Assembly: GCA_030710605.1 (NCBI GenBank)
Contig: CP092873.1
Coordinates: 447,900 to 511,899 of the forward strand
Direction of reading: 5' to 3'
DNA length: 64,000 nucleotides
DNA from: Cordylochernes scorpioides
Lineage: Eukaryota > Arthropoda > Arachnida > Pseudoscorpiones > Chernetidae
Shown piece after piece: positions 4,296 to 63,670 of this stretch. A program made the translations under genes and the position numbers. Each line of letters opens with the position of its first letter. The stretch's first letter is position 1. The notes under the pieces were generated by a model. It had not been told where the DNA came from. It saw only the letters and a list, made by a program, of their open reading frames with translations, and did not search any database.

Positions 4296-4482
4296 AATAT
4301 ATATTTTCCTTCTGTTTGGTGATAGTACAATTTTCATTTAAAGTAAAAAACAAACATAATTAGCGCTAATAATGAGGACAATTTTTCACAGATAGATGGC
4401 GCACTAAGTTATTTTTAAATAGAGAAGACTCATCAATAGATATCAGGACTTCTTGTTTGGCAGCTGAGGGGAATATACAGCC

Positions 4483-5086: not shown

Positions 5087-6030
5087 TTACGGCTTCTCCC
5101 CTGTGTGGGTCCGTCTGTGCTGGACCAGGTGAGAGGACACGGCGGACCTGTAGTCGCACTTGTCATAGGTGTAGGGTTTCTCCCCCAAATCCATCCGCTT
5201 GTGTCTGGACAGAGAGGAGGTGTCCCCTGTCCTGTAGTCGCACTTGTCACAGGTGTAGGGTTTCTCCCCCAAATGCATCCGCTTGTGTCTGGACAGAGAG
5301 GAGGTGTCCCCTGTCCTGTAGTCGCAGTAGGGGCAGGCATAGGGTTTCTCCCCCATGTGGATCCGCTTGTGTATGGACAGAGTGGAGGTGTCCCCTGTCT
5401 TGTAGTCACAGTAGGGGCAGGCGTAGGGTTTCTCCCCTGTGTGTATCTGCTTGTGTTTGGACGCGTAGGATTTCTCCCCCACATGCCGCCGCTTGTGTCT
5501 GGACAGAGCGGAGTAGTCCCCTGTCCTGTAGTCGCAGTAGGGGCAGGCGTAGGGTTTCTCCCCCGTGTGGATCCGCTTGTGTCTGGACAGAGCGGAGGTG
5601 TCCCCTGTCCTGTAGTCGCACTTGTCACAGCTGTAAGGTTTCTCCCCCACATGCAGCCGCTTGTGTCTGGACAGAGAGGAGGTGTTCCCTGTCCTGTAGT
5701 CGCAGTAGGGGCAGGCGTAGGGTTTCTCCCCTGTGTGGACCCGCTTGTGTTTGGACAGATCTGAGGAGACGGTAGTCTTGTAGTCGCACTTGTCACAGCT
5801 GTAAGGTTTCTCCCCCACATGCAGCCGCTTGTGTCTGGACAGAGAGGAGGTGTTCCCTGTCCTGTAGTCGCAGTAGGGGCAGGCGTAGGGTTTCTCCCCC
5901 GTGTGGATCCGCTTGTGTTTGGACAGATCTGAGGAGACGGCAATCTTGTAGTCACAGTCAGGGCAGGCAAATGGCTTCTCCCCGTGTGAGTCCGCTTGTG
6001 TCTAGAGTAGTGGGAGCTGGCAGGACTCAC
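5087..6030 (-). pseudogene. C2H2 zinc-finger exon, ZNF1 (frameshifted)
   Basis: The true frame reads repeated CPYCDYRTGDTSALSRHKR-type fingers (C-x2-C-x12-H-x3-H) joined by TGEKPY linkers, typical of DNA-binding poly-zinc-finger nuclear proteins. It starts with half a finger (SHYSRHKRTHTG), as in ZNF2 and ZNF3, but one C is missing from a C run near 5979-5983, shifting the frame before the first full finger. Below that are eight complete fingers, one finger lacking its whole Cys half (about 5445-5486), one with the last His changed to Asp (HKRMD) and one with its first Cys changed to Tyr (YTYDKC). It stops at 5087. No ATG opens the frame: a CAG acceptor-like site just precedes GTGAGTCC at 6030, suggesting an internal exon whose ATG lies in an unidentified upstream exon. 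Likely non-functional. Confidence 0.8.
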
Positions 6031-9373: not shown

Positions 9374-10611
9374 TTACGGCTTCTCCCCTGTGTGGGTCCG
9401 TCTGTGCTGGACCAGGTGAGAGGACACGGCAGACCTGTAGTCGCACTTGTCACAGGTGTAGGGTTTCTCCCCCAAATGCAGCCGCTTGTGTCTGGACAGA
9501 GCGGAGGTGTCCCCTGTCCTGTAGTCGCACTTGTCACAGGTGTAGGGTTTCTCCCCCAAATGCATCCGCTTGTGTCTGGACAGAGAGGAGGTGTCCCCTG
9601 TCCTGTAGTCGCAGTAGGGGCAGGCGTAGGGTTTCTCCCCCATGTGGATCCGCTTGTGTATGGACAGAGTGGAGGTGTCCCCTGTCCTGTAGTCGCAGTA
9701 GGGGCAGGCGTAGGGTTTCTCCCCCATGTGGATCCGCTTGTGTATGGACAGAGTGGAGGTGTCCCCTGTCCTGTAGTCGCAGTAGGGGCAGGCGTAGGGT
9801 TTCTCCCCCATGTGGATCCGCTTGTGTATGGACAGAGTGGAGGTGTCCCCTGTCCTGTAGTCGCAGTAGGGGCAGGCGTAGGGTTTCTCCCCCATGTGGA
9901 TCCGCTTGTGTATGGACAGAGTGGAGGTGTCCCCTGTCCTGTAGTCGCAGTAGGGGCAGGCGTAGGGTTTCTCCCCCATGTGGATCCGCTTGTGTATGGA
10001 CAGAGTGGAGGTGTCCCCTGTCCTGTAGTCGCAGTAGGGGCAGGCGTAGGGTTTCTCCCCCATGTGGATCCGCTTGTGTATGGACAGAGTGGAGGTGTCC
10101 CCTGTCCTGTAGTCGCAGTAGGGGCAGGCGTAGGGTTTCTCCCCGTGTGGATCCGCTTGTGTCTGGACAGAGCGGAGGTGTCCCCTGTCCTGTAGTCGCA
10201 CTTGTCACAGCTGTAAGGTTTCTCCCCCACATGCAGCCGCTTGTGTCTGGACAGAGAGGAGGTGTTCCCTGTCCTGTAGTCGCAGTAGGGGCAGGCGTAG
10301 GGTTTCTCCCCCGTGTGGACCCGCTTGTGTTTGGACAGATCTGAGGAGACGGTAGTCTTGTAGTCGCACTTGTCACAGCTGTAAGGTTTCTCCCCCACAT
10401 GCAGCCGCTTGTGTCTGGACAGAGAGGAGGTGTTCCCTGTCCTGTAGTCGCAGTAGGGGCAGGCGTAGGGTTTCTCCCCCGTGTGGATCCGCTTGTGTTT
10501 GGACAGATCTGAGGAGACGGCAGTCTTGTAGTCACAGTCAGGGCAGGCAAATGGCTTCTCCCCCGTGTGAGTCCGCTTGTGTCTAGAGTAGTGGGAGCTG
10601 GCAGGACTCAC
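9374..10611 (-). pseudogene. C2H2 zinc-finger exon, ZNF2 (expanded, one frameshift)
   Basis: Begins like ZNF3 with a half finger and runs through five complete fingers. One C is then missing near 10142 (CTCCCCGTG for CTCCCCCGTG), shifting the frame. The continuing frame encodes nine more complete fingers, six of them identical in protein and DNA (see 9638-10141). It ends at TAA 9374-9376, with one further finger and a last partial one readable beyond stops. About 14 complete fingers in all. Known C2H2 arrays of this kind bind DNA; the target is not predictable here. A single-base deletion separates this from an open frame, so a sequencing or assembly error should be considered. As in the other copies, no ATG precedes the fingers. 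Confidence 0.8.
9638..10141 (-). repeat. Six identical 84-bp zinc-finger repeats
   Basis: The string TATGGACAGAGTGGAGG recurs at 9659, 9743, 9827, 9911, 9995 and 10079, exactly 84 bp apart, and I see no differences between units. Each encodes one finger (CDYRTGDTSTLSIHKRIHM) plus linker. ZNF1 has a single close relative of this finger, so the array expanded after duplication. Confidence 0.95.
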
Positions 10612-22179: not shown

Positions 22180-25100
22180 TAGATTAGTTTTTAAGTTCAA
22201 TTGTTGTATCCAATGTTGAATATTAGACAATGTCCTAAACTTGTTAAAAAGAAATTTTTCTTTTATAAAATTTCGCCACGGCTACTGCTTAAACACTAAT
22301 CTAAACAAGTTTCAACCTTATTATTACATAGTACCAAAATGTTTGTTTGTTTGATTGTTTTGGTGAAATAAATAAAAAAATGCAAATATTAAATTTAAAA
22401 TATATAGAAAATTTATTACGATTAAAATACTGCATGTAATAAAAATATTGGAGATAGATATTATATGCAAGGCGGGTTTCCTTTCTTATTATTAAAAACA
22501 TTTCTTCAATATCATATATTGTCGAAATAATAAAAAAATTGAAAATTTCTATTCACTATATGTACCATATAGTGATCTTTACCAATTGTAAATTTGTTTT
22601 TAAAGTTTAATGGTTGTATCCAATGTTGAATATTAGACAATGTCCTAAACTTATTAAAAATAAATTTTCCTTTTATAAAATTTCGCCACGGTTACTGCTT
22701 AAACACTAATCTAAACAAGTTTCAACCTTATTATTACATAGTACCAAAATGTTTGTTTGTTTGATTGTTTTGGTGAAATAAATTTAAAAATGCAAATATT
22801 AAATTTAAAATATATAGGAAATTTATTACGATTAAAATACTGCATGTAATAAAAATATTGGAGATAGATATTATATGCAAGGCGGGTTTCCTTTCTTATT
22901 ATTAAAGACATTTCTTCAATATCCTATATTGTCGAAATAATAAAAAAAATTGAAAATTTCTATTCACTATATGTACCATATAGTGATCTTTACCACAAAA
23001 AAAAATAATTTCTACCTATTAAGAACTATGCATATATCTTCTGACATATAAACGAGCCCATTTTTGGGCCCATACATAAAGAATTAAAAAAATAAAAACT
23101 TAACCTACCATTGTCTCTCTATACGCATCGTCAGGACCTCCCATCTGTTCGCCTCTTCTCGTTACTAACCAAATTTTCTTTGAAAAAAAGAGGTTGCGCT
23201 CTCCCAAAAAAAAATGTATTATCATCTTACAGAGTAAGAAGAAAGTTCATTTAATTTCGCAGATATATTCAAAGAATAAAAAAAAGTAAAATATTATTCC
23301 TTTCCTTTTTTTCTTATTAAAAGAAAATTTGAATTAATAATAAAACAATAAAATATAATAGGTTTAATCCTTAAAAATTTTCTTTAGTAAAAATTTCTAA
23401 AAAAAAAATTATTTTTTTTTCATATTGTTATCAAAAAAAATATACCTAATTTATCTGAATTATATATATAATTAATTTTATTCTTTTTGAATAAAAATTA
23501 AATTTTGAATTTTTCGAACTGGTATTTTTTTATATTGCTATCAAAATATATACCTAATTTATCTAAACTATGTATATAATTAATTTTATTCTTTTTGAAT
23601 AAAATTAAATGTAGAAATTTTCGAAATGGTAATAAGACTATGGATCCCTCTTCTTGCATATAAAGGAAGGAACAATTTATATACATTTGTACATGTGCTC
23701 TTTGTACATTCTTCGTCTCGGCCTTTTTGCAGCGAGCTTTGGGATGCATGCCCAGAGCTAATCCCATTTCTTCATCTCTTAATCGACCTCGTCATTGTCC
23801 TTCTGTGGAGGGTTGGTCGGTATGGACAGGGCCAGTGTCATCTCCGAGTGGGTATCTTCCCCGGCTTTGGGTCTTCTTCTGCATCTGTATGCATCGGGCT
23901 TCTAGCTACTCAATCAGGGCCGATGTCATCTTCCTATAGCACATCTTGGAATGCGCGTCCAGGGCTGTGTCTTCCCCTGGCAGATCTTGGGATTCACGTC
24001 CGGGGCTGTGTCTTCCCCTGGCAGATCTTGGGATTCACGTCCAGGGCTGTGTCTTCCCCTGGCTTGGCCTTTGAACCACCGTCGGCCATTGCTGTGAGAC
24101 TTCCATCTGGACACCAAAACACTTTCGGCGAGACACTGCGTGTATATACATATGATGTAAAAGAATGTTTACATCTTGTTGGGTCTGCCAATTGTAGATT
24201 AGTTTTTGAGTTCAATTGTTGTATCCAATGTTGAATATTAGACAATGTCCTAAACTTGTTAAAAAGAAATTTTTCTTTTATAAAATTTCGCCACGGCTAC
24301 TGCTTAAACACTAATCTAAACAAGTTTCAACCTTATTATTACATAGTACCAAAATGTTTGTTTGTTTGATTGTTTTGGTGAAATAAATAAAAAAATGCAA
24401 ATATTAAATTTAAAATATATAGAAAATTTATTACGATTAAAATACTGCATGTAATAAAAATATTGTAGATAGATATTATATGCAAGGCGGGTTTCCTTTC
24501 TTATTATTAAAAACATTTCTTCAATATCCTATATTGTCGAAATAATAAAAAAATTGAAAATTTCTATTCACTATATGTACCATATAGTGATCTTTACCAA
24601 TTGTAAATTTGTTTTTAAAGTTTAATGGTTGTATCCAATGTTGAATATTAGACAATGTCTTAAACTTATTAAAAATAAATTTTCCTTTTATAAAATTTCG
24701 CCACGGTTACTGCTTAAACACTAATCTAAACAAGTTTCAACCTTATTATTACATAGTACCAAAATGTTTGTTTGTTTGATTGTTTTGGTGAAATAAATTT
24801 AAAAATGCAAATATTAAATTTAAAATATATAGGAAATTTATTACGATTAAAATACTGCATGTAATAAAAATATTGGAGATAGATATTATATGCAAGGCGG
24901 GTTTCCTTTCTTATTATTAAAGACATTTCTTCAATATCCTATATTGTCGAAATAATAAAAAAATTGAAAATTTCTATTCACTATATGTACCATATAGTGA
25001 TCTTTACCACAAAAAAAAATAATTTCTACCTATTAAGAACTATGCATATATCTTCTGACATATAAACGAGCCCATTTTTGGGCCCATACATAAAGAATTA

Positions 25101-27830
25101 AAAAAATAAAAACTTAACCTACCATTGTCTCTCTATACGCATCGTCAGGACCTCCCATCTGTTCGCCTCTTCTCGTTACTAACCAAATTTTCTTTGAAAA
25201 AAAGAGGTTGCGCTCTCCCAAAAAAAAATGTATTATCATCTTACAGAGTAAGAGAAAGTTCATTTAATTTCGCAGATATATTCAAAGAATAAAAAAAAGT
25301 AAAATATTATTCCTTTCCTTTTTTTCTTATTAAAAGAAAATTTGAATTAATAATAAAACAATAAAATATAATAGGTTTAATCCTTAAAAATTTTCTTTAG
25401 TAAAAATTTCTAAAAAAAAATTATTTTTTTTCATATTGTTATCAAAAAAAATATACCTAATTTATCTGAATTATATATATAATTAATTTTATTCTTTTTG
25501 AATAAAAATTAAATTTTGAATTTTTCGAACTGGTATTTTTTTATATTGCTATCAAAATATATACCTAATTTATCTAAACTATGTATATAATTAATTTTAT
25601 TCTTTTTGAATAAAATTAAATGTAGAAATTTTCGAAATGGTAATAAGACTATGGATCCCTCTTCTTGCATATAAAGGAAGGAACAATTTATATACATTTG
25701 TACATGTGCTCTTTGTACATTCTTCGTCTCGGCCTTTTTGCAGCGAGCTTTGGGATGCATGCCCAGAGCTAATCCCATTTCTTCATCTCTTAATCGACCT
25801 CGTCATTGTCCTTCTGTGGAGGGTTGGTCGGTATGGACAGGGCCAGTGTCATCTCCGACTGGGTATCTTCCCCGGCTTTGGGTCTTCTTCTGCATCTATA
25901 TGCATCGGGCTTCTAGCTACTCAATCAGGGCCGATGTCATCTTCCTATAGCACATCTTGGAATGCGCGTCCAGGGCTGTGTCTTCCCCTGGCAGATCTTG
26001 GGATTCACGTCCGGGGCTGTGTCTTCCCCTGGCAGATCTTGGGATTCACGTCCAGGGCTGTGTCTTCCCCTGGCTTGGCCTTTGAACCACCGTCGGCCAT
26101 TGCTGTGAGACTTCCATCTGGACACCAAACACTTTCGGCGAGACACTGCGTGTATATACATATGATGTAAAAGAATGTTTACATCTTTGTTGGGTCTGCC
26201 AATTGTAGATTAGTTTTTAAGTTCAATTGTTGTATCCAATGTTGAATATTAGACAATGTCCTAAACTTGTTAAAAAGAAATTTTTCTTTTATAAAATTTC
26301 GCCGCGGCTACTGCTTAAACACTAATCTAAACAAGTTTCAACCTTATTATTACATAGTACCAAAATGTTTGTTTGTTTGATTGTTTTGGTGAAATAAATA
26401 AAAAAATGCAAATATTAAATTTAAAATATATAGGAAATTTATTACGATTAAAATACTGCATGTAATAAAAATATTGGAGATAGATATTATATGCAAGGCG
26501 AATTTCCTTTCTTATTATTAAAGACATTTCTTCAATATCCTATATTGTCGAAATAATAAAAAAATTGAAAATTTCTATTCACTATATGTACCATATAGTG
26601 ATCTTTACCACAAAAAAAATTAATTTCTACCTATTAAGAACTATGCATAAATCTTCTGACATATAAACGAGCCCATTTTTGGGCCCATACATGAAGAATT
26701 AAAAAAAAAAACTTAACCTACCATTGTCTCTCTATACGCACCGTCAGGACCTCCCATCTGTTCGCCTCTTCTCGTTACTAACCAAATTTTCTTAAAAAAA
26801 AAAGAGGTTGCGCTCTCCCAAAAAAAATTCATCATCATCTTACAGAGTAAGAAGAAAGTTCATTTAATTTCGCAGATATATTCAAAGAATAAAAAAATGT
26901 AAAATATTATTCCTTTCCTTTTTTTTATTAAAAGAAAATTTGAATTAATAATAAAACAATAAAATATAATAGGTTTAATCCTTAAAAATTTTCTTTAGTA
27001 AAAATTTCAAAAAAAAATTAATTTTTTTATATTGTTATCAAAAAAAATATACCTAATTTATCTGAATTATATATATATTTAATTTTATTCTTTTTGAATA
27101 AAAATAAAATTTAGAATTTTCGAACTGGTATTTTTTTATATTGCTATCAAAATATATACCTAATTTATCTAAACTATGTATATAATTAATTTTATTATTT
27201 TTGAATAAAATTAAATGTAAAAATTTTCGAACTGGTAATAAGACTATGGATCCCTCTTCTTGCATATAAAGGAAGGAACAATTTATATACATTTGTACAT
27301 GTGCTCTTTGTACATTCTTCGTCTCGGCCTTTTTGCATCGAGCTTTGGGATGCATGCCCAGAGCTAATCCCATTTCTTCATCTCTTAATCGACCTCGTCA
27401 TTGTCCTTCTGTGGAGGGTTGGTCGGTATGGACAGGGCCAGTGTCATCTCCGACTGGGTATCTTCCCCGGCTTTGGGTCTTCTTCTGCATCTGTATGCAT
27501 CGGGCTTCTAGCTACTCAATCAGGGCCGATGTCATCTTCCTATAGCAGATCTTGGAATACGCGTCCAGGGCTGTGTCTTCCCCTGGCAGATCTTGGGATT
27601 CACGTCCGGGGCTGTGTCTTCCCCTGGCAGATCTTGGGATTCACGTCCAGGGCTGTGTCTTCCCCTGGCTTGGCCTTTGAACCACCATCGGCCATTGCTG
27701 TGGGACTTCCATCTGGACACCAAACACTTTCGGCGAGACACTGCGTGTATATACATATGATGTAAAAGAATGTTTACATCTTTGTTGGGTCTGTTTGGTG
27801 GAAAATCTGACCCAACAATTTTTGTAATAT
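22180..27830 (-). repeat. Nested tandem array of LTR-like sequence
   Basis: Three large units begin near 22180, 24190 and 26200; the first two have a period of about 2011-2015 bp and are almost identical. In units 1 and 2 a sub-unit of 410 bp (with ATGCAAGGCGGGTTTCC) is itself doubled (22221-22630 and 22631-23040; 24236 and 24646), while unit 3 has one. The rest of each unit carries a 39-40-bp minisatellite (GGCTGTGTCTTCCCCTGGCA) and a minus-strand TATATAAA. Between units the minus strand reads GACCCAACA. No coding function is evident; the recurring ORFs are repeats of the same non-protein sequence. TGTTGGGTC ends suggest LTRs, but a Penelope pLTR array is an alternative. Confidence 0.6.
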
Positions 27831-27849: not shown

Positions 27850-28949
27850 GTCAACACCTGCATTTCCTTTTTTTTTAACAAGGTACACCAGTTTAGAGTA
27901 GATGTTAGCTAATGCTGATGAAACAGGATTCCCCATTGGTAAACCTTTTTCTTGTTTGAAATATCTGTCTTTATATCCAAAATAATCTACATGGACAAAA
28001 TTGATAAAATAATTGCAGACGCAGCACAACTACAAGTAATAATCTGGAAACGCTATATTGATGATATACTATGCATCACAAAGGTTGATCTTTCCACCAT
28101 TCTGAATTTTTTGAATAACCTCAAACCCTTTCTAAAATTCACCTTTGAAATAGAAGAAAATAACTCCCTACCATTTCTAGACATACAATTAACCAGAAAC
28201 CAAGATAGAATTGAAACTCGAATATACCGAAAACCAACCCATACTGGAAGCTATCTGAACTTCAATTCATTTGGTCCCATCCACCATAAAATTTCCGTGG
28301 TAAAAACTCTTTCAAAAAGACTAACCACACACTTTTCAACAAACGATAACGACACAAAAAAGAAAGAACCAATATATTTCAAGAACTACTTAGCAATAAT
28401 TACCCTAAACCGTTTATCAAAAAGCATTTCTACAGACCGAGAATATCACCCACAAACAATAGACAAACTTCATCCCAAAACATTTTTTGCTCCCTACCAT
28501 ACAGCTATGGCTGTGAAAGAATAGCTAGAAAACTAAAATACTACAATATCACAACAAGATTCCAATCTACCTCGAATCTTAACAACATCCTCCGCCATCC
28601 TGATACAAAAAAGGTCACTGAACCAAACAATAGAACCAATGTCATATACAAAATACCATGCAAGTCTTGCCAAGCCGTCTACATAGGAGAAACCGGTAAA
28701 CCATTAATAGAAAGAATCAACCAGCACAAATCAGCCCTAAAACACCATAACCCGACCTCCTTATTAGTAGATCATGCTCTCATCAATGGCCACATTCCAG
28801 ACTTTGAACAAACATCAATAATACACCAAGATATAAAAGAAAAGCACAGCAGGCTATTCTTGGAGAGTTGGAGTTCTTTGGAAGACAGAAATAGCATAAA
28901 CCGAAAGATCGATATACCGGACTTGTACACACAATTTAGATGCTCTTAG
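27850..28949 (+). pseudogene. Penelope-like element: reverse transcriptase plus GIY-YIG endonuclease
   Basis: Plus-strand frame from about 28016 encodes the RT catalytic block WKRYIDDILC, then NSLPFLDIQL and YRKPTHTGSYLNF, hallmarks of Penelope-like RTs. A frameshift near 28480-28500 leads to CERIARKLKYYN and a GIY-YIG nuclease: NVIYKIPCKSC-AVYIGET, Arg in LIERINQHK, and the later Glu in FLESW; stop at 28949. These elements reverse transcribe RNA primed at nicks, the GIY-YIG domain cutting the target. The preceding RT motif (KQEKGLPMGNP) is on the opposite strand at about 28010-27880, so part of the RT is inverted. The element is 5'-truncated and dead. Confidence 0.88.
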
Positions 28950-29126
28950 AATAGGAACCTCTATGTATATATGAACTTCAGTGAAATGTCTTCATTCATA
29001 ATGCAATAGCCGAATATTTATTTTGTATATATAGATATTTACTTTTCACTCTATTTATTCATTTATTTTAATTAGTTACGATGTACTAATTGCTAAATGT
29101 ACTAAATGTACAAAAATGCAATATAA
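28950..29126 (+). other. 3' untranslated region of the Penelope-like element
   Basis: AT-rich, no ORF. Contains GTTACGATGTACTA at about 29078, the same string that forms the outer end of the small element at 29895. It leads straight into the split-hammerhead motif R1. Confidence 0.5.
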
Positions 29127-29193
29127 CAGCGGTATGGTAGATCAAACTGGCGAAACCGCTGGGAGGGTTCACCACTGATGAGCCAGGCCCTCC
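29127..29193 (+). ncRNA. Split/permuted hammerhead motif, copy R1
   Basis: Order on the plus strand: stem III 3' strand CAGCGGT (29127-29133), A17 (29134), stem I 5' strand TGGT, linker of 8 nt, stem II 3' strand CTGGC (29147-29151), GAA, stem III 5' strand ACCGCTG (29155-29161), GGAGGG, TTC, stem I 3' strand ACCA (29171-29174), CTGATGA (29175-29181), stem II 5' strand GCCAG, G, CCCTCC. All conserved hammerhead core positions are present: CUGAUGA, G10.1-C11.1, GAA, A15.1-U16.1 and H17=A. All three stems pair perfectly (4, 5 and 7 bp). Only the strand order differs from canonical. Predicted cleavage is after 29134. Lies about 180 bp past the Penelope-like stop codon. Confidence 0.6.
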
Positions 29194-29319
29194 CTTTAAT
29201 TTTTCCATCGCAGTAAGGACAGTAGAAATTGTTTTATTTTAAAAAGAATATTACGCCTCTAAAATAGTTTTATAATTTTAATTAGTATTGTACGATATTT
29301 ATCTGTATACATTACATTT

Positions 29320-29462
29320 TCATTTAGACGATTTTCGCCCGGGGAGATTGTGAGACGCCCGTGTCTCAAGTGTAATGCGCGGCTTGCCGCGAGAGGGGAT
29401 GAGATCCTTGAAAAAGATGGCCGTTTAGCCCATTGAAATATCGGAAATAAAAGATTATTTAT
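29320..29462 (+). repeat. Possible solo LTR fragment
   Basis: A purine stretch GGGGAGAT immediately precedes TGTGAGACGCCCGTGTCTCA, which starts with TG and forms a small hairpin (TGAGAC/GTCTCA). A GC-rich stretch and an AATAAA-like sequence (about 29446) follow. This resembles PPT plus 3' LTR start, but no partner LTR was found. Confidence 0.3.
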
Positions 29463-29881
29463 TGAATCCAAGATGTGCCCTTTATGAATATATATACTAT
29501 ATAGTAGAACTTACTTATGGTTATCCAATATGGTATCCATTCATAAACAAAAAGTCTAAGGACAAACTAAATTCTCTTCAATATAAAATACTAAAACATT
29601 GTATACAGCCCTACAGTACAACATCATCAGACTGTACACACATACTTGCACAAGTCCCCAAACTTACTGATTATATTGAATCTAACATGCTGAAAACCGA
29701 AATAAATTACAACCGATTTGACTCTTCAAGTAGGAATATAATTTCTAATTATATAAGGGAAAAATTGCAGAAATACTATGAGAAGACTAATACCATTTTC
29801 AAGTCCTTCTTCACTGACTCCCAAATACCCAAATATGTCAAGCCAAATTTTTACAGTGTCCAATTTTTTACTGGACACGGT

Positions 29882-29894
29882 AACTTTAGATCAT
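29882..29894. repeat. 13-bp target-site duplication, left copy
   Basis: AACTTTAGATCAT here and again at 31084-31096, bracketing the small-element insertion inside the LINE. Confidence 0.92.
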
Positions 29895-30010
29895 GTTACG
29901 ATGTACTAGAGCGCCATCTGTTATCAAATTATAAAACTATTTTAGAGGCGTAATATTCTTTTTAAAATAAAACAATTTCTACTGTCCTTACTGCGATGGA
30001 AAAATTAAAG

Positions 30011-30078
30011 GGAGGGCCTGGCTCATCAGTGGTGAACCCTCCCAGCGGTTTCGCCAGTTTAATCTACCATTACCGCTG
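30011..30078 (-). ncRNA. Split hammerhead motif, copy R2
   Basis: As R1 with linker AGATTAAA, but it has one extra A between stem III and stem I (CAGCGGTAATGGT), so H17 is followed by an unpaired base. All other core positions are kept. Confidence 0.55.
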
Positions 30079-30381
30079 TTATATTGCATTTTTGGAACTT
30101 CCTTTTATAGGTGACTGTTGTAAGACTCTTGGAATGGGTATTTTAGAAGAACTATGGACATAAGCTTTTAGGACAGCAGAATTGAATATAATTTATAATA
30201 TATAATATGCTTCGAGCAATCGTTCTTCCGCAAAAATCAAATTGTGTCTTTTATTAGAACAATAATGTTACGATGTACTAGAGCGCCATCTGTTATCAAA
30301 TTATAAAACTATTTTAGAGGCGTAATATTCTTTTTAAATAAAACAATTTCTACTGTCCTTACTGCGATGGAAAAATTAAAG

Positions 30382-30448
30382 GGAGGGCCTGGCTCATCAG
30401 TGGTGAACCCTCCCAGCGGTTTCGCCAGTTTAATCTACCATACCGCTG
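30382..30448 (-). ncRNA. Split hammerhead motif, copy R3
   Basis: All core nucleotides and stems as in R1; linker AGATTAAA. Predicted cleavage between A and T in CAGCGGTA/TGGT. Confidence 0.58.
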
Positions 30449-30565
30449 TTATATTGCATTTTTGGAACTTCCTTTTATAGGTGACTGTTGTAAGACTCTT
30501 GGAATGGGTATTTTAGAAGAACTATGGACATAAGCTTTTAGGACAGCAGAAAAATTGCAATATAA

Positions 30566-30632
30566 CAGCGGTATGGTAGATTAAACTGGCGAAACCGCTG
30601 GGAGGGTTCACCACTGATGAGCCAGGCCCTCC
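30566..30632 (+). ncRNA. Split hammerhead motif, copy R4
   Basis: Identical to R3 over the motif. It starts 16 bp after the head-to-head junction of the inverted element. Confidence 0.58.
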
Positions 30633-30936
30633 CTTTAATTTTTCCATCGCAGTAAGGACAGTAGAAATTGTTTTATTTTAAAAAGAATATTACGCCTCTA
30701 AAATAGTTTTATAATTTGATAACAGATGGCGCTCTAGTACATCGTAACATTATTGTTCTAATAAAAGACACAATTTGATTTTTGCGGAAGAGCGATTGCT
30801 CGAAGCATATTATATATTTATAATTATATTCAATTCTGCTGTCCTAAAAGCTTATGTCCATAGTTCTTCTAAAATACCCATTCCAAGAGTCTTACAACAG
30901 TCACCTATAAAAGGAAGTTCCAAAAATGCAATATAA

Positions 30937-31003
30937 CAGCGGTATGGTAGATTAAACTGGCGAAACCGCTGGGAGGGTTCACCACTGATGAGCCAGGCCC
31001 TCC
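30937..31003 (+). ncRNA. Split hammerhead motif, copy R5
   Basis: Identical to R4; 371 bp downstream of it, so one monomer length separates the two predicted cleavage sites. Confidence 0.58.
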
Positions 31004-31565
31004 CTTTAATTTTTCCATCGCAGTAAGGACAGTAGAAATTGTTTTATTTTAAAAAGAATATTACGCCTCTAAAATAGTTTTATAACTTTAGATCATATTT
31101 GTACAAAGTCAGAAAGACGGATTCGCCTAAATGCTCATGTGGTGCAGAAGAAGAAAATCCTGTACATATTCTAACGGACTGTCGACTTGTAGAGGACTTG
31201 AGAGTCAAAAATCAAATAAATATAAATTGTCTAAATCAAATAGTTAATAATAGATATATGTATATAAATTTTAATAGATTTTGTAGAATGTTTTTTAGTA
31301 ATAGATAGTCTGGGCTGTAATAACTGGTATATAGTTATATGCTGCAAATAGCTCTAAATTTCTGTTCTTATCTGCGATGTTCACTAATATCCATTATAGG
31401 GTAATTAAATCGTTAACTAACTGACAAATATGTTAATAATTTCTATTATAATAACTAAAATCATATTAATAATTACTGTAAATAAGCTCCCAAACTTGTG
31501 TATGCATGCAAATATCTAAGACGGATATCGCGTGCTTTGTAAATTATAATAAATAAATAAATATA

Positions 31566-32561: not shown

Positions 32562-32661
32562 NNNNNNNNNNNNNNNNNNNNNNNNNNNNNNNNNNNNNNN
32601 NNNNNNNNNNNNNNNNNNNNNNNNNNNNNNNNNNNNNNNNNNNNNNNNNNNNNNNNNNNNN
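32562..32661. other. Assembly gap, 100 N
   Basis: Exactly 100 N, a conventional placeholder of unknown true length. Sequence on the two sides is unrelated, so contiguity across it is not proven. Confidence 0.99.
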
Positions 32662-33065: not shown

Positions 33066-33404
33066 GTTTAAAGAGTAGTTGTTGACTGTACTATTGCCTC
33101 GATAGAACAATTTTGACTCTTCATCAAGTAGTGTTATTAGATAATTTGTTTTAGCCTAGAGGCCAATAGTTGTAAATAGTACAAAAACATGCACTTAGAG
33201 TTTGTATGGGCTGTTTTACCTAAATTTCATTAACTATATGCACTAAGTTATATGAATAAGTCCAGTAATTAATTATTATGTTGGGTTATAATGAATAACA
33301 AATATGTATTCTCCTTTTTGAGAATCCAGAATTCTCCCTTGTAAAGAGTTTTCAGTTTTCCTTTTATTCTTAAGCTACAATTTTATTTTTAGTGTCATAA
33401 TGCC

Positions 33405-34440
33405 ATTGTAAAGAGTTTTCAGGATTTTTTTTCTTTTTGGCTACTACTTTGTTTTAGTGTTGGTAAATGATTTTAAAGAGTAACTCAGTTTTTTTTTCAA
33501 ACAACACTTTGTTTTTAGTGTTAGGATGTGATTTAAAGAGTTTTCAGTTTTCTTTTTAATTTTAAGCTACAATTTTTGTTTTTTAGTGTTATAATGCCAT
33601 TATAGAGTTTTTTTTTAAGTGTCATTTTTAAAGAGTTTTCACAACCTTGTTTTAGTGTTAGTATATCATTGTAAAGAGTTGTCACAACCTTGTTTTAGTG
33701 TTAGTACATCATTTTAAAGAGTTTTCACAACCTTGGCTTTAGTGTTAGTATGTCATTTTAAAGAGTTTTCACAACCTTGTTTTAGTGTTAGTATGTCATT
33801 TTAAAGAGTTTTCACAACCTTGCTTTAGTACTAGTATGTCATTTTAAAGAGTTGTCACAATCTTGTTTAGTGTTAGTACATCATTTTAAAGAGTTTTCAC
33901 AACCTTGCTTTAGTGTTAGTATGTCATTTTAAAGAGTTTTCACAGCCTTGCTTTAGTGTTAGTATGTTATTTAAAAGAGTTTTCACAACCTAGCTTTAGT
34001 GCTAGTATGTCATTTTAAAGAGTTTTCACAACCTTGTTTTAGTGTTAGTATGTCATTTTAAAGAGTTTTCACAACCTTGTTTTAGTGTTAATACATCATT
34101 GTAAAGAGTTTTCACAACCTTGTTTTATTGTTAGTATGTCATTGTAAAGAGTTGTCACAACCTTGTTTTAGTGTTATATGTCATTTTAAAGAGTTTTCAC
34201 AACCTTGTTTTAGTGGTAGGATGTCATAGCAAAGAGTTTTTACAACCTTGTTAGGATGTGATTTAAAGAGTTTTCAGTTTTCTTTTATTTTTAAGCTACA
34301 ATTTTTGTTTTTAGTGTTATAATGCCATTATAAAGAGTTTTCAATTTTTGAATATCATTGTAAGGAGCTTTCAGTTCTTGAATGTCATTGTAAAGGGGTT
34401 TTCAGTTTTTTTTTTTTTGGCTACATTGAGCTTTAATGTT
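33405..34440. repeat. 43-bp minisatellite
   Basis: Unit of about 43 bp: TTTTAAAGAGTTTTCACAAC, CTTGTTTTAGTG, TTAGTATGTCA. About 14-15 well-matched units lie between 33620 and 34240, with more diverged units (TTTTCAG in place of TTTTCACAACC) on both sides. Non-coding. Confidence 0.9.
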
Positions 34441-37072
34441 AGAAAGTGAATTTAAGAGTTTTCAGTTTTTTTTCTTTGTGTTTATTAAAGCTACAATTCT
34501 GTATTAATAGCACAATGTGGTTTAAGATTGAAGTAAGTTCAACAGTTTATTTTATTTTATTTTTTTTTAAGGTTCTGAACTTTGGTTCAACTTTAAATAT
34601 AGATAAAGGAACTTAGACGCACTAGATAACTGCTGTGCTTATAACCAATTCTCTATGGACAAACTTGGAATATGCGTTGGGTAAAACTTGACTCCCTGTA
34701 ATCCCTTAGGTCCAGGAGGCAGTCCAAGGAGAATTTCTAATGAGAGTGTGTAGGGCAGTTGTGGTCTAAGAGTTGATATGTTAGGATAACAAGTGATCTC
34801 TGTTGTTAAACTCCAAAGCAGGTTGGGTATTGAAAGCCCTATGATTCCAAAGGGGGGGTTTAGCTGAATAGCAGGGAAGGAAAGACACCAATATCCTTGA
34901 ATAGGAAGTAAGGTTGGCAAACACTTGTAGATCTATCATATATGGCAATGAGGTAAATGCTCGAAGTTCAATTCGCTCCAATTTTAAGTGCTAGTTTTGA
35001 TGATTCGTTTTGTTTAGACACCAAGTGTCAAGATAAGAAGAAGAATTTCAAACTGTTAGACGCACAATTTTAATGATAGGTTAGATTTCAGCATTTGATT
35101 GTTGATTGTCAACAATCAAATGCTGAAATCTAACCTATCATTAAAATTATTAATTTGTTTAAGTATAAATATTATTTATTTAAGTACAGATAATTTATAT
35201 ATAGAGTTTGTATGAGGCATTTTTTTTTATTTGAGTAAACTAGGGCTTTAGTCCCCAATTTGTTTTAATTTGATAATTTTATTTGATTTCACATTGTCCT
35301 GAAAGTCTTGTTATTATTAGGGTCTATCGATGATGATAATTATAGTACTTTGGCTTGTGTAGCAGCTTTTAACTTTAGTTTATATGCAAACCGTGAATGT
35401 TGGGGGGGGAGGGTGTATGAATGGATTGGTTTAATGAATGTGTAGAAGGTTAAAAACAATTATACTATTAGACCAAAGGTACATTAGAATAGTGTTAGGG
35501 AATTAATAGGTTCGATTTTCTTTTAATTTTGATTTCTTTATTTGTTAGGATCGGTAGCTTCACAGGACTTACAACTCTATCGATAGGAAGATATCCGCTC
35601 CCTTTTGTTAGGCCTCCTTTTAAAGGAGTATAAGTATAATTTTTTATTTGTGTAATATCAATTACTTTATTCCATTATACCAACTTGAATTCTAAGGGTC
35701 GTAGATAATGATCATGTCTCGATTCTCAGGCTGGAAGATTGTGGGAGGTTATGATCAGACCAAAAAGCCTACAATTCTTTTCCTCAAGAGAGGGAACAGA
35801 GAGGTATCAGGTGAACTTTGTGCTAGGTGGGGGATTTAGTTGCCGATGTCGCAAGCTAAGTGCATAGCGACAGACCTCGGATAACCGATCTGACATCGTA
35901 GTTTACGACGCTTTAAGCGTGGCTGAGATGAGGGTGATTCAGACGGGAGGTTGGGAAGGATCGGCACATTGGATGCTCTTCTATATATTGCGCAGCTTGG
36001 AACCAATCCTCTATGGACAAACTTGGAACATGTGGTGGGTAAAGTGAATTCCCTATAACTCCTTGTTTCTAAGTCAAAGTCTAAAGGGGGTTTCTAATGA
36101 GAGTTAACAATTGAGCATGTAAGAAACAAGTTATGATTAGACGAGGCGATTCAGTCTACAGATTTTAGGTACCAATTAGCAAAGTGACAGATGGGCTGTC
36201 CAGATTCTTTGCGTTTTATATCGCCCCAGGCTAGCAAAAGTTAAACACCTAATTAAAGACTATGGTCTACCATACGTTTAGTTGGAACGAATTCAAGTCT
36301 AAATACCAATTAGTAAGTAGAATTTTTTTTTCTCACGAGGATAACTCGTTCTATGTTAAGATAAAGTTTAAATTAGTAGGACAACAAAAACGAACTTCAG
36401 AGTAGATTGCCAGAACAGGCCAGTATTCCAGACTTGAAGAAGGAAGAAATTTTAAGGGAAGATTGAGTATCAATCTGCTTCTTTTTGGGTGGGAAGTAGC
36501 CCAGAACAGTAAGTTTAATTTTTTCTTAGGACAAAGGGTCAAATTACAGAGAGATATTAAGAACTCAAGTGTGAGAAGATATATCGTAAGGTAGAAGTTA
36601 GACCTAGGTTGTTAGTCATCAACATTTATCCCCTTCGAGGTTAACTTATGTATTTTATTAAAGTGAATTTTTACTGGCTAAAAAAAATATAAGTACACAT
36701 TCTATAGATAAGCTAAACAATGTATAATGGAGGTTGACAACAGTGTCCAACTAAAGACAAAGAGAAGTAAGGTTGTCACCCCAGAAAGGGTAATTATGGA
36801 AGTAATCTGGTTTAAAGAATTGCTGGCTACTAAGATTTCCTTTCCTATATATTTTTTTTATCTTTGTTAAGAAAGGCGGGGAACACGTCAGACAAACACT
36901 CCCAGTGACAAGTTGGTAAGAACAAACTTTTAAGTAATACATGTAAATTTTGAAATACTCGCAAAATGCCCACGATCCTCAGTGCATATTTATTCCTTTA
37001 TTATTATTATCTATTCAGTAATACCATTTACCATGTATCATTTTTTATTATATTCATGTATATTTATATATA
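34441..37072. other. Gene-free stretch with unclassified repeats and a perfect palindrome
   Basis: No ORF above about 90 codons and none recognisable. A motif CTCTATGGACAAACTTGGAA occurs twice (about 34649 and 36010). The segment 35205-35640 has a diverged second copy at about 39895-40310. Composition is less AT-rich at 35700-36000. I cannot assign a function. Confidence 0.6.
35066..35148. repeat. Perfect 40-bp inverted repeat, 3-nt spacer
   Basis: Left arm 35066-35105, right arm 35109-35148, spacer TTG. All 40 positions pair. Would extrude a cruciform or form a long RNA hairpin. Confidence 0.97.
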
Positions 37073-48845: not shown

Positions 48846-49958
48846 TTACGGCTTCTCCCCGGTGTGGATGCGGATGTGGGCGGTGAGGGCGGAGGTGTCC
48901 CCCGTCCTGTAGCTGCACTGAGGACAGAGGTACAGCTTCTCCCCTGTGTGGGTCCGCCTGTGGGTGACCAGGTGAGAGGACACGGCAGACCTGTAGTCGC
49001 ACTTGTCACAGGTGTAGGGTTTCTCCCCCGTGTGGATCCGCTTGTGTCTGGACAGAGCGGAGGTGTCCCCTGTCCTGTAGTCGCACTTGTCACAGCTGTA
49101 GGGTTTCTCCCCCACATGCAGCCGCTTGTGTCTGGACAGAGAGTAGGTGTTCCCTGTCCTGAAGTCGCAGTAAGGGCAGGCGTAGGGTTTCTCCCCCGTG
49201 TGGATCCGCTTGTGTTTGGACAGAGCGGAGGAGACAGCAGTCTTGTAGTCACAGTCAGGGCAGGCAAATGGCTTCTCTCCTGTGTGGGTCCGCCTGTGGG
49301 TGACCAGGTTAGAGGACACGGCAGACCTGTAGTCGCACTTGTCACAGGTGTAGGGCTTCTCCCCCACATGCAGCCGCTTGTGGGTGACCAGAGAGGAGGG
49401 GTACCCTGTCCTGTAGTCACAGTAGGGGCAGGCGTAGGGCATCTCCCCCGTGTGGATCCGCTTGTGTCTGGACAGAGCGGAGGTGTCCCCTGTCTTGTAG
49501 TCGCAGTAGGGGCAGGCGTAGGGTTTCTCCCCTGTGTGTATCCGCTTGTGTTTGGACGTGTAGGGTTTCTCCCCCACATGCAGCCGCTTGTGTCTGGACA
49601 GAGCGGAGGTGTCCCCTGTCGTGTAGTCGCAGTAGGGGCAGGCGTAGGGTTTCTCCCCCGTGTGGATCCGCTTGTGTCTGGACAGAGCGGAGGCGTCCCC
49701 TGTCCTGTAGTCGCACTTGTCACAGCTGTAAGGTTTCTCCCCCACATGCAGCCGCTTGTGTCTGGACAGAGAGGAGGTTTTCCCTGTCCTGTAGTCGCAG
49801 TAGGGGCAGGTGTAGGGTTTCTCCCCCGTGTGGATCCGCTTGTGTTTGGACAGATCTGAGGAGACGGCAGTCTTGTAGTCACAGTCAGGGCAGGCAAATT
49901 GCTTCTCCCCTGTGTGAGTCCGCTTGTGTCTAGAGTAGTGGGAGCTGGCAGGACTCAC
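48846..49958 (-). CDS. C2H2 poly-zinc-finger protein exon, ZNF3 (open)
   Basis: A 370-codon open frame: half finger (SHYSRHKRTHTG), then 12 complete C-x2-C-x12-H-x3-H fingers with TGEKPY/VGEKPY linkers and one finger lacking its Cys half (YTSKHKRIHTG, about 49530-49570). Strong TGEKP linkers imply sequence-specific DNA or RNA binding in the nucleus. No effector domain (KRAB, BTB, ZAD) is visible in this exon. The frame opens with GTG after a CAG acceptor-like site (49959 side) and an in-frame TGA lies just upstream, so this is likely an exon spliced to an unidentified ATG exon. It ends at GEKP-TAA, where the ancestral finger array evidently went on. Least damaged of the three copies and the only candidate for a working gene here. 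Confidence 0.7.
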   Translation of the reverse strand: MSPASSHYSRHKRTHTGEKQFACPDCDYKTAVSSDLSKHKRIHTGEKPYTCPYCDYRTGKTSSLSRHKRLHVGEKPYSCDKCDYRTGDASALSRHKRIHTGEKPYACPYCDYTTGDTSALSRHKRLHVGEKPYTSKHKRIHTGEKPYACPYCDYKTGDTSALSRHKRIHTGEMPYACPYCDYRTGYPSSLVTHKRLHVGEKPYTCDKCDYRSAVSSNLVTHRRTHTGEKPFACPDCDYKTAVSSALSKHKRIHTGEKPYACPYCDFRTGNTYSLSRHKRLHVGEKPYSCDKCDYRTGDTSALSRHKRIHTGEKPYTCDKCDYRSAVSSHLVTHRRTHTGEKLYLCPQCSYRTGDTSALTAHIRIHTGEKP

Positions 49959-61291: not shown

Positions 61292-63670
61292 TTATATTAT
61301 GCGTAGTCCTTTGAATATTAAGCCTTCATGCAAAGAGATTTCTTCTCTGAAGGGCCAATATAATCTGCATTCAATTGGAACTCCAGACTTGTGTTCCGGC
61401 CATCCATTTATTAGAAGTGACTTTAGTTGCGATAGTTCTGGATCAGTTTCTGTTGCCGTCACCAGTTCATTATTTGTTAGGCTTTGTGGCATAGAAATAC
61501 ATAGAAGAATTTCTAGATGTTCGTTTTCAAATTTTTCTTCTTCAACACAATACCTGCTTAGTAAATCAGCTATAAACATATCTTTACCTCTAACATATTT
61601 TACCTTTAGATCATAGGGCTGTAGCTCTAATAATATTCTCTGCAAACGGAGTGGCGATTTGCTCAAGCATTTCTTAAAAATCGTTTCGAGAGGCTTATGG
61701 TCAGTTTCTACCAAGATAGGTCTACCAAAAATGTATTCATGAAACTTTCGGCATCCAAATTTTATTGCTAAGGCCTCTTTCTCAATCTGGGGATAGTTGC
61801 GCTGGTAGTCAATTAGTGTTGCTGAAGCAAAGGCAATAGGACGGTTGTCCTGCATAAGTACAGCTCCAACCGCATGCGAACTAGCATCAACTGACATTGT
61901 CAGTGCCGCATTTGGATTAAAAAATTTCAAAGCAGGTGCCTTCTTTAATGCAATTTTAATTTCTTCTAGATCATTATCAAGGGAAGGGTCCCAGCTCCAA
62001 ACAACATTTTTCTTAAGGAGCATCCTCATGTTGCTGGTCTTTTCCGATGCATTAGGTATGAAACTCTGCAAGTATTGTATCATACCAAGTAAGCGCTGAA
62101 GCTCCTTGCGATTTCTAGGACTCTGGATATCATTTATTGCTTTGACCTTTCCGGGGTCTATTTGTATTCCTGCTTTTGATATCAAATGTCCCAAAAATTT
62201 AACTTGTTCTCTTTCGAAGACACATTTTTCTTTGTTTAATTTGATTCCAGTTGATTTAAGCAAAGAAAGAACCTCATAAGTTCTCTTTCTCAATGTATCC
62301 AGGTCAGGTGCATGGATCAGGATATCATCCATTGAGTTTTCTACTCCCTTTATGTCACTTAGTAAATCAGTCATAATTTGTTGCATTATTTCTGGGGCAG
62401 TTTTAATACCAAAAGGTACCCGTAAGAATGAGTATCTTCCCCATGGTGTTGAAAAAGTTAAGTATGGTTGTGTTTCTTCATCAACTGGGAGTTGCCAAAA
62501 GATTTTCTTTAAATCCAGTTTGGTGAAGTATTTGGACTTGTGCAAGGTGACTGCAATGTCCTCCAGTCGTTTGAGAGGAAACTCTCTTCGTAACAAAATC
62601 TTGTTTAAGTCTGAAGGATCAAGACATATCCTTATCTTTCCGTCCTTGCGAACTATCACCATATGACTGGAGATGGGAGTGGGGTGATTCACTTTTTTGA
62701 TTATGCCCAATGCTTCCATTTCATCAAGTTCCTTCTTGACATTATCTTTAATTGCAAAAGGTATCTTGCGAGCAGGTTTAATGGGCAAATTTTTTGGAAT
62801 TTCTGAAAAGTCAGCTTTATATTTATAGTTCCTTATAAGCCCTATACCTTTAAACAATTCTTCAAATTCCATTTCTGGACAGACTTCATCAACCCTGTAG
62901 ATCAAGCCTAACTGTGAGCAGGCATCTCTTCCCAGAATCGGAGTGATTCCTTTTTCTGATATTATAAATCTGAGAACTACTGCCTTACTTTTTATTGTGC
63001 AAGTAACATTTGTCTCGCCCATTACCCTTATAGATTCACCAGAGTAAGTTAATAACTTCCTTACTCTACTTGAATTAATTTTTAGTTTAAGTTTTTTAGA
63101 GAGTGTCAAAGGTATGACATTGCACTGAGCTCCAGTGTCCAATTTAAAATCAACTGTTTGATTTCCTTTGAACGTTACTCTTTCCAACCACTCTTGTCCA
63201 TTTCGGGTCTTTATTTCATTTATTGAGAGAGAAAATTCATCCGATTCCACCTCAGTATCTTCTACAAGGTTTACCACTCTTTCTCTTTTGGCAGTTTTGC
63301 ATAATTTTGAAAAATGGTTAGCCTTTTTGCATTTATGGCATACTTTACCATATGCTGGGCATTTGTTTATTTCATGTTTAGCTCCACAACGTGTACAATT
63401 ATTTATAAGTTTCTTAAAGCTTGTGGTATCTCTAGGATTAAAGGCTTTCTGTGAGAAATCTCTACTAATTTTTCTTTCGATTGTGGAAATGGATGGCTCA
63501 TTTTCGTTCCTATCTTTAATTTCTCTTAGTTGTGTATTAGCATTTTCCGCAGCTACACATATTTGAATTGCTTTAGTTATGTTCAGATCTGGATCAGAAA
63601 GTAATTTTTCTCGAACATCATTATTTTGTATACCAACAACTATTCTATCCTTTATTAGTTCATCCTCCAT
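61292..63670 (-). pseudogene. gypsy gag end, protease, reverse transcriptase and RNase H
   Basis: 792 codons uninterrupted from an ATG at 63670. Two CCHC-like knuckles (C92-C104, C111-C124), protease active site DTG at 178-180 (FKLDTGAQC), RT with first catalytic Asp at 386 (FTKLDL), FLRVPFGIKTAP and MDD at 447-449 (NSMDDILIHAP), RNase H Asp 595 (SVDASSHA), EKEALAI and Asp 657 (TDHKPL). The MDD form and HAP ending are usual for K02A2.6-like elements. The FWQ helix is altered (LDLKKIFWQ for the common LDASSGFWQ type). Cytoplasmic reverse transcription and RNase H digestion would be its roles. It is fused in frame to gag except for one TGA. Confidence 0.9.

Follow-up and report, generated by a model that had tools for sequence, protein, structure and literature searches.

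A stretch of 64,000 nucleotides from the genome of Cordylochernes scorpioides (hereafter the window, in its full length) holds the three conserved strands of a hammerhead ribozyme in a non-canonical order, and this raises the question of which ribozyme it might represent and what carries it in an animal genome. The first-pass annotation of this DNA had pointed to arthropods as the place to look, and the host is in fact a pseudoscorpion.

A hammerhead core in the S-G-C order

Direct inspection of the first copy (29127-29194) revealed every hammerhead core base and all the stems in the block order S-G-C, with each strand named in the annotation found at its position. The S strand consists of CAGCGGT (29127-29133), the H17 base A (29134), and TGGT (29135-29138), the G strand of CTGGC (29147-29151), GAAA (29152-29155), and ACCGCTG (29155-29161), and the C strand of ACCA (29171-29174), CTGATGA (29175-29181), and GCCAG (29182-29186). 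Here, the core bases CUGANGA and GAAA, the A15.1-U16.1 pair, and H17 (A or C across subfamilies) are all present, and the cut foreseen after 29134 agrees with the H17 position. Moreover, stems I and II are joined on their far sides by a further helix, stem IV, in which GGAGGG (29162-29167) faces CCCTCC (29188-29193), and which is 7 bp long when 29161 pairs with 29194 rather than with 29127. Because the 29127-29161 pair is not formed in 32 of the 69 scorable distinct copies, we assigned 29161 to stem IV, which gives a probable length of 6 bp for stem III and of 7 bp for stem IV, with zero bases between them. The lengths of 7, 5, and 4 bp originally counted for the stems hold for stems I and II, but not for stem III, whose outermost pair is often absent.

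The annotation had taken the topology to be new, yet Eckert et al. (2023; PMC10085705) had already named the S-G-C order type SGC, with 583 predicted sequences, and, judged by its sequence, the window motif is a type-SGC hammerhead of this known topology. The extra stem IV, also noticed at the outset, corresponds to the stem I-II interaction of that paper. Five copies of the motif, four of them intact, are found in two insertions within the 64-kb window:

29127-29194, plus strand: type-SGC motif, copy 1 (descriptor, shuffles, and copy comparison)
29127/29128-29133 with 29155-29160/29161, plus strand: stem III of copy 1
Between 29134 and 29135, plus strand: predicted cut of copy 1, after H17 at 29134
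29135-29138 with 29171-29174, plus strand: stem I of copy 1
29147-29151 with 29182-29186, plus strand: stem II of copy 1
29161/29162-29167 with 29188-29193/29194, plus strand: stem IV of copy 1
30010-30078, minus strand: type-SGC motif, copy 2, carrying an additional A at the cleavage site
30381-30448, minus strand: type-SGC motif, copy 3, intact (descriptor)
30566-30633, plus strand: type-SGC motif, copy 4, intact (descriptor)
30937-31004, plus strand: type-SGC motif, copy 5, intact (descriptor)

The extra A of copy 2 (30010-30078, minus strand) sits precisely where cleavage and ligation are predicted, and might be either a scar from copying over a ligated junction or an ordinary slip.

Our descriptor, applied to the 64-kb window for each of the six possible orders of the hammerhead blocks, returned four full S-G-C motifs with 16 Watson-Crick pairs each (29127, 30566, and 30937 on the plus strand and 30389-30448 on the minus strand), and for the other five orders nothing with 12 or more pairs. 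No S-G-C core of at least 10 pairs appeared on either strand in 100 dinucleotide shuffles, and two canonical cores of 12 pairs arose in the same shuffles. Under looser limits, a single S-G-C core of 17 pairs turned up in 2000 shuffles (the remainder had at most 14), and as the 2.6-Gb genome amounts to about 40,000 such windows, the core alone would be expected by chance occasionally. That the hammerhead likeness is accidental is nevertheless extremely improbable, since stem IV lies in the expected place, the core and stem IV together reach 23 pairs against a best of 19 in 2800 shuffles, and the combination of core, stem IV, repeats, and compensatory changes is not expected by chance, a repeat family being, besides, a typical hammerhead carrier. 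Hairpins III and IV both appear in the nested minimum-energy fold (z of -2.7 and -2.8), and the entire unit, folded as a circle, is unremarkable (z of -0.8). An Rfam scan of the window gave no family reaching its gathering score, and one match near the motif, at E 3.7, was dismissed as chance.

In its S-G-C order, complete core bases, stems I-III, and far-side I-II helix, the window motif is like the type-SGC hammerheads of PMC10085705, and it shares with a few of them the 0-nt junction between stem III and the I-II helix, an arrangement that Eckert et al. call not obviously compatible with the crystal structure. It departs from the HRIMA-1 consensus of that paper in two respects, for which reason we filed it under type SGC and not under HRIMA-1: stems I and II are linked by 8 nt (7 nt in subfamily C), where HRIMA-1 typically has 3, and stem I counts 4 bp, where the consensus has 5 bp of fixed sequence. 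According to the same source, five type-SGC examples cleave in vitro as expected and one without the cleavage site does not, while disrupting and restoring mutations indicate that stems I, II, and III and the I-II helix all matter. In the full texts searched, the later work listed on type SGC besides this paper amounted to two structure comparisons.

The first-pass annotation had favored pairing between two copies, with hairpin III of one motif engaging hairpin IV of another, either as a dimer or between units. We regard this as possible but rather doubtful. Stems III and IV abut without a spacer, with outer ends that lie far apart in one folded motif (PMC10085705), the units stand in tandem and the arms are inverted, and some amphibian type I retrozymes function as dimers (PMC7229834). 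However, the type-SGC constructs of PMC10085705, for which the sections concerned report no concentration test, carry one motif and cleave during transcription, and a dimer is therefore not required.

The repeat unit and its insertions

Each motif belongs to a longer repeat, of which the window contains one whole unit:

30094-30464, minus strand: one whole repeat unit, 371 nt, 34.8% G+C

Units follow one another head-to-tail at a spacing of 367-371 nt, which bears out the tandem setting suspected from the start. A long array of subfamily C at C1:8844963-8851985 runs through 14 motifs of one orientation, spaced at 367-368 nt except for a single step of 1489, and ends with two reversed motifs 368 nt apart. 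The genome, with its 2,619,359,433 bases spread over 24 contigs, was searched with a pattern that captures the G-C half of the motif (CGAAAC, 12-40 bases of any kind, and CTGANGAG) and so counts half-motifs and not whole ones. This pattern matched 90,678 times (45,524 times forward and 45,154 times in reverse), and its reversed control 778 times (373 and 405). Nearly all of the 100 half-motif places listed show family sequence, and at least two (C1:1234966 and C1:1648434) differ widely. A further 40 best matches were examined in their surroundings, which made up 35 regions; chosen as best matches, these represent young copies, and at least one full motif is found in 32 of them.

Metazoan retrozymes are tandem elements of 170-400 nt with low G+C and duplications of more than 4 bp, for which Penelope-like elements are the suspected helpers (Cervera and de la Pena, 2020; PMC7229834). 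Like these non-LTR retrozymes, the family described here consists of non-autonomous tandem units of low G+C (371 nt, 34.8%) with one hammerhead each and target-site duplications (12-17 bp), in a genome that also holds Penelope-like elements. Unlike them, it has regular head-to-head arms, and it carries a type-SGC hammerhead in place of type I, for which reason we term it retrozyme-like. No report of such a pseudoscorpion repeat family was found in the full texts searched, a scope that leaves preprints and most subscription papers outside.

The two insertions and their target sites are as follows, with no strand assigned unless given:

29065-29076: target-site duplication of insertion 1, left, ATTTTAATTAGT (12 bp)
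29077-29274: insertion 1, a short inverted end piece, filler, and part of one unit with copy 1
29275-29286: target-site duplication of insertion 1, right (12 bp)
29429-29880, plus strand: interrupted retrotransposon reading frame, left part
29881-29894: target-site duplication of insertion 2, left, TAACTTTAGATCAT (14 bp)
29895-31082: insertion 2, two head-to-head arms of partial and whole units, with copies 2-5
31083-31096: target-site duplication of insertion 2, right (14 bp)
31097-31248, plus strand: interrupted retrotransposon reading frame, right part

The reading frame broken by insertion 2, which we take to be that of a non-LTR-type retrotransposon, runs uninterrupted at the same point in a paralogue from this species (P0068), and the right flank encodes its continuation. 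By their coordinates, the arms of insertion 2 measure 1.4 and 1.8 units, and, as these exceed one unit, the template would have been uncut or circular. Its outer ends lie 35 nt apart in unit coordinates. In the 35 best-match regions, 17 of the 44 unit clusters of at least 150 bp are head-to-head, and in 15 of these 17, one end falls at u159-177 and the opposite end at u193-216, with the remaining two ending at u371 and u167 or u268. Duplications of 12-17 bp flank 10 of the 15 clusters. For the other five, the best matches are only 7-9 bp, a length that chance produces as well: of 600 randomly chosen pairs of sites from these regions, not one reached 12 bp (best 10).

A G+C-rich and possibly structured piece without an Rfam match (29330-29400) lies between insertion 1 and the interrupted frame. 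Elsewhere, the window holds a perfect inverted repeat with 40-bp arms and a 3-nt loop (35066-35148), a tandem array with a period of mostly 43 bp (33342-34407), direct repeats that lie some 1.6-2.0 kb from one another and contain 41-bp sub-repeats (23415-27780), and a run of 100 N that is an assembly gap or masked (32562-32661). Arrays with an 84-bp period, presumably resembling zinc-finger coding repeats, occupy 5110-5983, 9434-10582, and 48853-49931, and a 20-bp repeat recurs close to each of them (at 4480, 8765, and 48282). On the minus strand, 61292-63670 is a frame of 792 residues; its domains, namely aspartyl protease, reverse transcriptase, and RNase H, would mark it as an LTR-retrotransposon polyprotein.

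Variation among the copies

For an alignment of motifs, the 35 regions provided 68 rows (33 distinct), to which were added 40 chromosome 1 copies, hand-picked from the 100 listed half-motif matches to take in divergent ones, so that broken pairs are over-sampled in the resulting 108 rows (71 distinct). Many of the divergent copies show broken pairs or altered core bases. Both partners are changed in 18 of the 71 distinct rows for the stem II pair 20-59, in 4 for the stem I pair 9-46, in six rows for the stem IV pair 35-66, and in one to three rows for several other pairs. In stem III, the inner six pairs are mostly formed, with some G-U changes and with double changes in single rows only. As for the covariation of stems I-III that the annotation had called for, the subfamilies differ in both partners of pairs in stems I and II, whereas the support for stem III is thin; the double changes of stems I and II appear to reflect few independent events. 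Subfamily C differs from subfamily A on both sides of stems I, II, and IV; its position 17 is C, its stem I is reduced to 3 bp, and its I-II linker is 7 nt long.

A gapless test was made with 38 copies, namely 37 of the 38 printed gapless ones and the window copy, leaving out L419 (the most divergent) and the gapped rows. In this set, 92.9% of the cells pair, and the double-change cells number 13 against 4.4 in shuffles (0 of 500 had as many). The covariation score stands at 0.098, compared with 0.079 for the shuffles (0 of 500 scored as high) and no more than 0.065 for slid versions. Ten of these 13 cells trace to one pair and may be one event; the doubly changed pairs number four, which 77 of 500 shuffles reached and two slid versions surpassed (5-6); and the pair types are not above those of the shuffles. 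Counted genome-wide within a single fixed sequence context, the outer pair of stem IV occurs as G/C 39,949 times, as A/T 11,941 times, and as A/C 1,332 times, these being the cells tabulated, with reversed controls at 0. Among the matches listed, A/T accompanies both ACTA with GCCAA and ACCA with GCCAG, and these two sequence backgrounds suggest that it arose more than once.

Such variation bears on the view that the family carries a once active ribozyme merely by descent, with copying continuing and cleavage no longer of consequence. The many divergent copies with broken pairs or core bases would fit this, as would the copying of templates exceeding one unit, and in the case of one Penelope-like element, mutating the ribozyme did not prevent insertion in vitro (Frangieh et al., 2024; PMC11167929). 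We consider it unlikely all the same, as 32 of the 35 window-like regions keep a full motif, although picked as best matches, and the compensated A/T exceeds the broken A/C ninefold at one stem IV pair in two backgrounds. The type-SGC ribozyme of the repeat family is, on our reading, probably functional.

Penelope-like elements and the spread of the family

Adjoining insertion 1, and outside the ribozyme element, is a second mobile sequence:

27943-28949, plus strand: Penelope-like fragment in two overlapping open pieces, with a GIY-YIG domain in the second

We take this fragment to be Penelope-like, in part from domain matches. Its second piece matches LAZ67_20002390 of Cordylochernes scorpioides in 191 of 197 residues, the GIY-YIG match in the window piece scores slightly below the Pfam cut-off, and its relatives list both GIY-YIG and reverse-transcriptase domains. 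Insertion 1 lies about 130 bp past the fragment's stop, and its own 12-bp duplication rules out copy 1 as a terminal repeat of this neighbor. The genome is rich in a Penelope family whose open frames run to about 800 codons (124 matches reported; 52,887 at a first look). Compared with the unit, 30 loci of one such family gave 21 without a match and nine with matches at scattered places, which we read as inserted pieces, and across these 30 loci the ends of the unit showed no sequence kinship with the local Penelope family.

Canonical type I cores were found by regular expression in 5 of 32 Penelope-derived loci and four times in the 35 repeat regions (L388, L392, L394, L404, L423, L437, L439, L445, and L446); they sit at scattered places and are read as belonging to other repeat families of the same genome. 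A canonical core in the Penelope locus L444 was discarded, as the first pair of its stem II is not formed. Applied to 379 loci, the descriptor returned 195 type II, eight CGS, five GCS, four SCG, and seven weak S-G-C matches, the last with 11-13 pairs each and never more than 3 pairs in stem IV. A genome contig scan gave three loci, none with the motif by descriptor.

Penelope-like elements such as PAc of Anolis (PMC11167929) resemble the present family in their tandem or partial copies, their A+T-rich targets, and an offset of 30-40 bp, and also in possessing a hammerhead, which in their case lies in the terminal region. The optional 30-40 bp tail of such elements is described there as the distance between two reverse-transcription starts, and a preference for A+T-rich targets is reported as well. 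The same kind of offset is seen here in the 35 nt of insertion 2 and in 15 of the 17 head-to-head clusters. Unlike those elements, the unit is, as far as seen, without a reverse transcriptase or GIY-YIG nuclease; moreover, their hammerhead is canonical, and no kinship with the local Penelope family was found.

The setting also differs from that of the published type-SGC hammerheads. Almost all permuted motifs of PMC10085705 are exclusive to metatranscriptomes (type CSG comes from metagenomes), the paper describes none in the genomes of known organisms except for one type-GCS candidate, and its type-SGC ribozymes are found next to hairpin ribozymes, whereas the present motif resides in the genomic DNA of a named animal. 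Such company in metatranscriptomes might suggest that the repeats are the DNA form of a viroid-like circular RNA agent captured by a host reverse transcriptase. This is improbable, as tens of thousands of copies, several subfamilies, and uniform insertion argue for a long genomic life, and the descriptor found no ribozyme of 12 or more pairs on the opposite strand of the unit. Searching viral contigs with the Penelope protein yielded no relative, and among the viral contig scans for relatives, some of which covered a part of the contigs, one found nothing.

Taken on its sequence, the ribozyme family is real, being a known type in a new host, in a genomic setting, and at very high copy number. 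Our preferred explanation, to which we give a probability of roughly 80%, is that Cordylochernes scorpioides harbors a non-autonomous, retrozyme-like family of about 371 nt with one type-SGC hammerhead per unit, moved by Penelope-like machinery. With less assurance, but still on balance, we favor that the permuted hammerhead processes this abundant mobile family, which would spread by way of ribozyme-cut circular RNAs copied by a Penelope-like reverse transcriptase. Under such a scheme, the repeats would be transcribed as multi-unit RNA, in which hairpins III and IV form in each motif and their loops pair as stems I and II. Each motif would then cut after GUA or GUC, and a host ligase would close the unit-length RNAs into circles. 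These circles, or concatemers, may be copied by a Penelope-like reverse transcriptase with a GIY-YIG nuclease, starting from two nearby sites, with one primed per DNA strand, and the head-to-head product would be sealed at A+T-rich sites with a duplication of 12-17 bp. Against this explanation stand the short stem I (4 bp, and 3 in subfamily C) and the meeting of stems III and IV without a spacer. The limits of the gapless covariation test, the arms exceeding one unit, the in vitro insertion of ribozyme mutants, the lack of kinship between the unit ends and the local Penelope family, the short duplications of five clusters, and the ordinary fold of the circular unit count against it as well.

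Should the explanation hold, this would be the first named host and the first genomic DNA home of a type-SGC ribozyme, as well as the first retrozyme-like family to use neither type I nor type III. Type-SGC hammerheads have been known as RNA sequences without a named host, and the approximately 90,000 half-motif matches now give them a named animal. The family offers a large natural set of variants with compensating changes, and a likely role for the ribozyme in processing the repeat RNA. It further suggests that retrozyme-like elements are not bound to the canonical hammerhead types, and its regular head-to-head arms, with their offset of about 35 nt, amount to a large natural record of possible Penelope-like integration.
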